Assembly (NCBI RefSeq): GCF_016584665.1
Contig: NZ_BBJB01000117.1
Location: 1-64,000, forward strand
Source: Pseudanabaena sp. lw0831
Lineage (GTDB): Bacteria; Cyanobacteriota; Cyanobacteriia; Pseudanabaenales; Pseudanabaenaceae
Direction: 5' to 3'
DNA length: 64,000 nt
Part shown: positions 24,587 through 27,705 of the stretch, one piece after another
How positions within the stretch are numbered: position 1 is the stretch's first letter
Layout: every line of letters starts with the position of its first letter
Translations under genes and position numbers: made by a program
The notes under the pieces: model-generated
Told to the model about the DNA's origin: nothing
The model's database searches: none
The model's input: the letters and a program-made list of their open reading frames with translations, nothing else

Positions 24587-25669
24587 ATGAAAAGGCTAAC
24601 CTATATTAGTAAGTTTGCGCGATCGCTTACCAAAAAGGAAATTGAGAGCATTGGTAATATTTCGCAAACAAATAATTCTAGAGACGGTATTACAGGAGTT
24701 TTACTGTGCTGTAGTGGTATATTTTTTCAGATTTTAGAAGGTGAAGAAGATAGAATTGATGTCCTCTACAAAAAGATTTTAGAAGATGATCGCCACGATC
24801 AAATTTTGTGTCTAAAATCAGAACTAAACGTTGCACAGCGAAGATTTCCAGATTGGTCAATGGAAGTAATCGTCCTTGATGAAAATAACGATATTTTGTT
24901 GCAACCAATTAAGATTTTGCTGCAAACTTTGGCAGACTCACAAACAATCTTAGCAAGCTATACGCAGTCGGGAGTTTTGCAAGCCATAGCGAACGGAATT
25001 AATCCACTTACACTAGTTCCTCGCTATACAGAAAAGATCATTTTCTTTGCCGATATTATTAGTTTTACAAGCATCACCGAAAAACTAGAGGTAACAGAGG
25101 TTGTCGATTTACTCAATCAATTTTTTACTATTTGTACTAAGGCGATCGCATCTAGGGGTGGTGAAGTCACTAAATTTATTGGTGATTGTGTGATGGCATA
25201 TTTTGACGGTGATCGAGCTGACGAATCTCTGCAAGCTAGTTTAGATATTCTTGCAGAATTAGAAATACTTCGCAATCAAGCTTCAGTGAATAGTCCGTTA
25301 CGAGTTCTCTATATTGGCATTGGGCTATCGAAAGGAACAGTATTGGAAGGAAATATTGGTTCTCAAACTAAAAAAGAATATACTGTCATCGGTGACGCAG
25401 TTAATGTTGCCTCAAGGATTGAAGCGCTCACTAGACAGTTAAATCGCTATTTAGTATTTTCCGCTGCTGTGCGGGAAGGTTTAAGCGATCGCTGGCGACC
25501 TGTCAGACTAGGTGATTTTAAGGCAAAAGGAAAGGATGCGATCGTAGAAGTTTATTCGATTGATGATATTTTAACTTTCCAAAAGTCAGATTTTCAGAAG
25601 CTAAAGCTAGAAATTCAGCAACATCTTGAACTAATTAGCCGTCAGACACCAGAGCTTAATTATTCGTAG
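24587..25669 (+). CDS. BLUF-domain photoactivated adenylate cyclase
   Basis: The 360-residue protein has an N-terminal BLUF flavin photoreceptor (1-92) with Tyr6, Gln48 in FFQILEGE, and Trp90/Met92 in FPDWSM. A class III cyclase domain follows at about 150-330. Metal-binding Asp156 (FFADIISFT) and Asp200 (KFIGD), the adenine-selecting pair Lys196/Thr266, and Asn273/Arg277 (NVASR) are all intact, predicting cAMP rather than cGMP. Key positions coincide with those I recall for OaPAC, so blue light should raise cAMP. The soluble protein lacks a membrane anchor. Its stop lies inside a long palindrome. Confidence 0.95.
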   Translation: MKRLTYISKFARSLTKKEIESIGNISQTNNSRDGITGVLLCCSGIFFQILEGEEDRIDVLYKKILEDDRHDQILCLKSELNVAQRRFPDWSMEVIVLDENNDILLQPIKILLQTLADSQTILASYTQSGVLQAIANGINPLTLVPRYTEKIIFFADIISFTSITEKLEVTEVVDLLNQFFTICTKAIASRGGEVTKFIGDCVMAYFDGDRADESLQASLDILAELEILRNQASVNSPLRVLYIGIGLSKGTVLEGNIGSQTKKEYTVIGDAVNVASRIEALTRQLNRYLVFSAAVREGLSDRWRPVRLGDFKAKGKDAIVEVYSIDDILTFQKSDFQKLKLEIQQHLELISRQTPELNYS

Positions 25670-25739
25670 GATGCGTTAGTGAAACGTAACGCATCATTTT
25701 TGCCTAATTGATGCGTTACGTTTCACTAACGCATCCTAC
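25666..25739. repeat. 31-bp-arm palindrome over the cyclase stop
   Basis: Arms GTAGGATGCGTTAGTGAAAC plus GTAACGCATCA (25666-25696) are repeated in reverse complement at 25709-25739 with a 12-base spacer. The left arm contains the cyclase TAG. This motif is a familiar cyanobacterial interspersed repeat, to my recollection. Confidence 0.7.
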
Positions 25740-25755
25740 ATTTACAGCAATTCTA

Positions 25756-25808
25756 AAATCCAAAAAGACAAAATGCCCGCGTAGCGCGCGCTTTGTCTTT
25801 TTGGATTT
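25756..25808. repeat. Palindrome upstream of the kinase gene
   Basis: Arms AAATCCAAAAAGACAAA and TTTGTCTTTTTGGATTT surround a GC-rich core with CGCGTAGCGCG. It stands about 100 bases before the kinase start, so it lies in the kinase 5' region. Confidence 0.65.
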
Positions 25809-25905: not shown

Positions 25906-27705
25906 ATGATGTCAAACCTTTTAGATAACCGCTATCGCGTCACTAGCGTCTTAGGCAGTGGCGGCTTTGGGGAAACCTATTTGGCTGAAGACACCAAAAT
26001 GCCCTCTAACCGTCGATGCGTGATTAAGCAGCTTAAACCTGTTGCTGACAATCCGCAGATGTATGAATTATTACAGCAACGATTTCACCGTGAGGCAGCA
26101 GTCCTCGAAACATTAGGAGAAGAAAGTCGCTACATTCCCAAACTCTATGCTAACTTCGCAGAAAATGGATTATTCTATTTAGTCCAAGAATGGATTGATG
26201 GCTTAACGCTTACTGAAACGATTGAACGTAACGGTAAATGGAATGAGAATGCTGTGCGACAATTGATGACTAGCATCCTTCAAACCCTTATCTATGTTCA
26301 CGATCGCGGCATTATTCATCGAGATATTAAGCCCGACAATATTATTTTGCGTTCTGGTGAACCTGTATTAATTGATTTCGGCGCAGTTAAAGAGACTATC
26401 AATGTCAGCACAATCCGCAGTTCGGCTCAACAGGCGCATTCGATTGTGATCGGTACACCGGGATTTATGGCTTCAGAGCAGGCCGCAGGTAGACCATTTT
26501 TTGCTAGCGATCTTTACAGTCTTGCTCTGACCGCTATCTTTGCACTTACGGGTAAATATCCGCAGGAACTCGGTACTGACCCGCAAACAGGAGAAGTACT
26601 CTGGCAGCCTCATGTTATGGCAATTAGCATGTATTTAAAAGCAGTATTTACTATAACTCTGCAGTTTGATCCACGCGATCGCTATAGCTCTGCGAGAGAA
26701 ATGCTCGAAGCATTGCAACCAAATCAAACTAATTCTGGTAAATTAGTTCCTATTCCGCCAGCCATGTCGAATATGCAGACGGTGGCGGTCACACCTAGAG
26801 GCTATACTCCGCCTACTATTCCTGATCAATCTGTGTATGTATATCAGCCTCAACAAGATCCTAAAAAAAAGATATTTGGTCAATTACTAGTAACAATAAT
26901 TGTCGGTGGGGCTGTCGGGGCTGCGATCGCACTAGGTGTAGTCATCTCTCAGAATGGCGGCATCGTAGCACTATGGAACAAGATCTCTTCCTTTAACAAA
27001 CCCGTTGCTAAAGTTCCATTTTATTTTCTGGCTGATTCTGCTTTTGAAGATATTGAAAAAGCAAATCTCAGAGTGGAAAAATTAAAATCTCTAGGATATA
27101 AAGAAGCAGGAGTGTTTTGGATACCTGACTATCCCAATTTAGGAAGCAATAAATTTCAACAGGTATATACCAGCCAATTCAAAGATATTGAAAGTTGTAA
27201 GTCTAAGCTCAAGGAGCATCTCAAATTTGTTGAAGATGCGTATTGCGCTCAGGCTAGTCCCAACGAGAAAGATCCAGTGGAAAGAATCTCTGGGAGCGAT
27301 TTACAACAACCCACTGTTTCACCTTCACCTATGCCAACAGCAACTCCATCTAAAACGCCAACGGCAACTCCTTCACCAACTAAACCTTCTCCTGAACAAG
27401 CAATTCGAGACTATTACAGTCTGATCAACGATCGCCAATTTCAAAACGCATGGCAAAATCTCACGCCCAAATTTCAACGAGATCGAGCTGGTGGATACAA
27501 AACCTTTACTGATTGGTGGCAAACTGTCAGTCAAGTTTCCGTCAATGGGGTACGTCTTGTTGAATCTAAAGAGAATTCGGCAATTATTGATATTGACCTC
27601 ACTTACCGTAAAGATAAAGCTATTTTCCCCGAAACTTTGCGGATGAGTTTAGTTTGGAATGAATCCTCAAAACAATGGCAAATCAATGAAACCCAAAGAC
27701 AGTAA
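25906..27705 (+). CDS. Ser/Thr protein kinase with membrane anchor and two C-terminal domains
   Basis: Start at ATG 25906 (or 25909), since the upstream frame runs through palindromic repeats. The ~600-residue protein has a eukaryotic-type kinase domain (LGSGGFGETYLAE, VIKQLKP, HRDIKPDNI, DFGAVKE, GTPGFMASEQ). A Pro-rich linker and a membrane helix (LLVTIIVGGAVGAAIALGVVI) follow. Then comes a SPOR-like module (YFLADSAFEDIEKANLRVEKLKSLGYKE), a Thr/Pro linker and an ~100-residue end domain (EQAIRDYYSLINDRQFQNAWQ). Parts after the helix are probably periplasmic sensing domains. Confidence 0.9.
   Translation: MMSNLLDNRYRVTSVLGSGGFGETYLAEDTKMPSNRRCVIKQLKPVADNPQMYELLQQRFHREAAVLETLGEESRYIPKLYANFAENGLFYLVQEWIDGLTLTETIERNGKWNENAVRQLMTSILQTLIYVHDRGIIHRDIKPDNIILRSGEPVLIDFGAVKETINVSTIRSSAQQAHSIVIGTPGFMASEQAAGRPFFASDLYSLALTAIFALTGKYPQELGTDPQTGEVLWQPHVMAISMYLKAVFTITLQFDPRDRYSSAREMLEALQPNQTNSGKLVPIPPAMSNMQTVAVTPRGYTPPTIPDQSVYVYQPQQDPKKKIFGQLLVTIIVGGAVGAAIALGVVISQNGGIVALWNKISSFNKPVAKVPFYFLADSAFEDIEKANLRVEKLKSLGYKEAGVFWIPDYPNLGSNKFQQVYTSQFKDIESCKSKLKEHLKFVEDAYCAQASPNEKDPVERISGSDLQQPTVSPSPMPTATPSKTPTATPSPTKPSPEQAIRDYYSLINDRQFQNAWQNLTPKFQRDRAGGYKTFTDWWQTVSQVSVNGVRLVESKENSAIIDIDLTYRKDKAIFPETLRMSLVWNESSKQWQINETQRQ

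Follow-up and report, generated by a model that had tools for sequence, protein, structure and literature searches.

A gene of Pseudanabaena at 24587..25669 on the forward strand very probably encodes a photoactivated adenylate cyclase (PAC) that is orthologous or near-orthologous to OaPAC of Oscillatoria acuminata. It lies in a 64,000-nucleotide stretch of DNA (the window) from a genome that belongs to this genus. The open reading frame runs from ATG to TAG and specifies 360 amino acids, exactly as a preliminary description of the DNA had proposed. That description also named the product a probable BLUF-cyclase. Assignment to the OaPAC/bPAC type is well founded because the domain architecture, the gap-free collinearity with known members, the intact key residues, the predicted fold and the signature of purifying selection all agree, and no observation speaks directly against it. 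Characterised PACs are few, and they serve to raise cAMP by light. What is new here is the genomic setting: a PAC-kinase gene order conserved within the genus, and second PACs in tandem with the first. The PAC itself joins a known type.

The protein combines two domains, both detected in Pfam over the cut-off. The BLUF domain (PF04940, E=3.7e-28) spans residues 1-93 (24587..24865), and the class III cyclase catalytic domain (Guanylate_cyc, PF00211, E=1.4e-19) spans residues 147-319 (25025..25543). Between them lies a connector (24902..24991), predicted to form a helix at residues 106-125, the alpha3 position, followed by a second at residues 128-135. The N-terminal domain carries a flavin switch of the Tyr-Gln-Trp/Met type, and six of its residues (Y6, N30, Q48, D67, W90 and M92) show no variation across 22 aligned homologues. 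Roles near the flavin are documented for Y6, N30, Q48, W90 and M92 of OaPAC (PMC11533990). The C-terminal domain is a class III cyclase with its two metal Asp residues (D156 and D200), the Lys/Thr pair for ATP (K196 and T266) and the Asn/Arg pair (N273 and R277). As in class III cyclases generally, D156/D200 would serve metal binding, K196/T266 adenine recognition and N273/R277 the transition state. The preliminary description had called Tyr6, Gln48 and Trp90 intact, along with the catalytic residues including Lys196/Thr266, at positions matching those of OaPAC. Every residue checked was found in its place. The suspicion that this numbering was off by one was rejected, K196/T266 being correct; 197/267 are the bPAC numbers.

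Among solved structures, OaPAC (PDB 4yus, 5x4u, 9f1y) is the closest by sequence (E 1.8e-132), aligning over residues 1-355 with no gap and with 202/355 (57%) ungapped identity. The two proteins have the same domain order, a similar length, and flavin-switch and catalytic residues in common. Identity reaches 63% in the BLUF region (residues 1-110) and 61% in the cyclase (residues 147-320), and falls to 47% between them, where L111, L115 and Y125 of the connector are nonetheless identical to OaPAC. The second-closest is bPAC of Beggiatoa sp. (PDB 5m27; phmmer E 2.4e-113, residues 1-331), which shares the fold and architecture at about 50% identity in structural alignment but is more distant from the window PAC than OaPAC is. 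Euglena PAC alpha/beta likewise join BLUF and class III cyclase domains, but in longer chains, each of which contains two BLUF-cyclase units. An AlphaFold2 monomer model of the window PAC, built from 22 homologues, is of moderate confidence (mean pLDDT 82, pTM 0.63), the connector being among its weakest parts (pLDDT about 57-70, moderate to low). The best PDB matches of this model are OaPAC (E 6e-47) and bPAC, both full length, with TM scores of about 0.65-0.81, so that the predicted fold resembles that of solved PACs.

By homology, we infer flavin binding, dimerisation, light activation, a cAMP product and a physiological role for the window PAC. Oxidised flavin in the N-terminal BLUF domain would take up blue light. 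Tyr6 would then give up an electron and a proton, and the Gln48 side chain would rotate in consequence, with a red shift of roughly 10 nm. The Trp90/Met92 region, and then the alpha3 helices of a parallel dimer, would relay the change, and the two cyclase domains would shift such that the interfacial sites (D156/D200, K196/T266, N273/R277) convert ATP to cAMP. The cAMP would then act via CRP-type proteins, and motility is a plausible target: in Synechocystis, pili and motility are under cAMP control according to work cited in PMC9043183. Several cNMP-binding proteins are encoded in the window genome, among them some that carry GE...PRST/A-type cassettes, and CRP-like proteins are present. One Pseudanabaena strain has been reported as phototactic (PMC8365994).

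There is a slight chance that this BLUF-cyclase binds flavin and makes cAMP while its main natural input is something other than blue light, such as redox state, or that its light gain is very small. The size of the gain cannot be fixed from sequence alone, and even in OaPAC the activity is far below that of bPAC (PMC6937261). Further, the window PAC has N29 and K63 where OaPAC has K29, a flavin phosphate contact, and R63; both substitutions are common among relatives. However, the invariance of the six flavin-switch residues in all 22 homologues would be hard to explain without photochemistry.

The light activity of the window protein may exceed that of OaPAC, because its short C-terminal tail lacks the hydrophobic end reported to damp OaPAC. 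Only 12 residues follow E348 (25631..25666), against 18 in OaPAC and just three past the equivalent position in bPAC (PMC6937261). The last nine residues of OaPAC are mostly hydrophobic and reduce its activity (PMC6937261). The OaPAC group has such a hydrophobic end, of IFGVKSLPL type in the near relatives of OaPAC, and the window PAC lacks it.

At a strict threshold, the PAC gene is present in 23 of 26 Pseudanabaena genomes and in four of 386 genomes sampled phylum-wide, three of these four carriers being Pseudanabaena. The earlier statement that such enzymes are few therefore holds across the phylum sample but fails within Pseudanabaena, where they are near-universal. The nearest named homologues are those of Pseudanabaena sp. 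UWO311 (95% identity) and SR411 (90%), together with a record labelled Phormidium tenue (91%). Further carriers, at 55-58%, are Laspinema, Oscillatoria, Phormidium pseudopriestleyi and Planktothricoides. Phylogenetically, the PAC genes of Pseudanabaena group in a single clade (100/100), separate from the OaPAC group. A contig of an Omnitrophota metagenome-assembled genome encodes a BLUF-cyclase (L068) that is 49% identical to the window protein and sits on a very long branch, which may reflect transfer or mis-binning. A plasmid-borne origin of the window PAC was considered and rejected, there being no match in the plasmid collection. The literature searched, with incomplete coverage, made no mention of a Pseudanabaena PAC or of experiments on one.

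Elsewhere in the window genome, the other matches comprise cyclase domains that have no BLUF partner and a single short BLUF protein. The latter is the sole other BLUF gene of the genome (contig 57, 142949-143224, reverse strand), a short 155-residue open frame of PixD-like size that retains the Trp and the Met.

Comparison with five close relatives gave dN/dS values of about 0.05-0.07 for the PAC. Against Pseudanabaena sp. UWO311, dN is 0.027 and dS 0.43, and in the one pair that was split by domain, both domains are constrained. With dN/dS about 0.06, the gene is therefore under purifying selection. In seven genomes of Pseudanabaena, a second PAC (B) adjoins the first (A), on one side or the other (L019/L041, L025/L042, L027/L040, L028/L039, L015/L018, L034/L043 and L024/L044), with the caveat that in G401 one of the partners has no BLUF part and that of G406 is cut by a contig end. 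B copies are 70-77% identical to the window protein, have a longer conserved C-terminal tail with a KQRKTLFMLYDR-like ending, and also occur alone. The window genome has one PAC only and no tandem partner, and a search of the PAC-kinase gap and of the rest of this genome found no remnant of another PAC. That the window PAC is decaying or inactive, having lost such a partner, as its single state beside seven relatives with two might suggest, is very unlikely, given a frame free of stops and frameshifts, the low dN/dS and active-site residues that, where checked, are all intact.

Variation at the active site is concentrated at T266, the ATP-selecting residue, which is the most variable catalytic position in the genus. 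Alanine replaces it in the A copy of L019, in L021 and L052, and in the B copies of L015, L027, L028 and L056; at the remaining catalytic positions that were checked, Pseudanabaena PACs do not vary, save for one R277K. T266A could alter base selectivity. In five tandem pairs, Ala266 is found in exactly one member. This pattern may be due to chance, because most of these pairs share ancestry. Within tandem pairs, the change arose independently only about twice, and we do not claim it as evidence of heterodimers.

Upstream of the PAC lies rpiA, in divergent orientation. Downstream, on the same strand, is a membrane Ser/Thr protein kinase gene (25906..27705), a conserved neighbour in Pseudanabaena. 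The preliminary description had noted this kinase, and it is real: a hydrophobic stretch is consistent with one membrane span. Its listed TTG start at 25708 is probably wrong and the ATG at 25906 the true one, because the ATG fits the homologues and the kinase domain and the TTG sits within a repeat. Of the 14 Pseudanabaena-group loci that have enough downstream DNA, 13 show the PAC-kinase order. It was found in none of the Laspinema/Oscillatoria-type loci, and it is a point of difference between the PACs of this genus and OaPAC.

The gap between the two genes is 236 nt in the window and ranges from 20 to 477 nt, with 20 nt in two relatives. In the window, the gap holds two hairpins. The first (25666..25739), just past the PAC stop, has 34-nt arms that are 97% complementary and a terminator-like stem. 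It is built from a 26-bp palindromic repeat, present twice (25670-25695 and 25710-25735), which has 13 copies in the genome at no more than two mismatches, against none for the reversed control. The second (25756..25808) has 25-nt arms that are 88% complementary. Since these hairpins separate the genes, co-transcription of PAC and kinase in the window strain is doubtful, and an operon is unsupported. Conservation of the gene order across the genus nevertheless hints at a functional link. We speculate, as an unlikely but not negligible case, that Pseudanabaena has a genus-specific light-signalling locus of a PAC, often a second PAC, and the membrane Ser/Thr kinase, in which the PACs may heterodimerise with one T266A site. 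The window would then hold the one-PAC version.

The window PAC offers a relative of OaPAC at 57% identity with a naturally short tail. Together with some twenty close homologues and the tandem paralogues, it forms a panel for PACs of varied activity and kinetics. It also allows PAC function to be tested in motile filamentous cyanobacteria.
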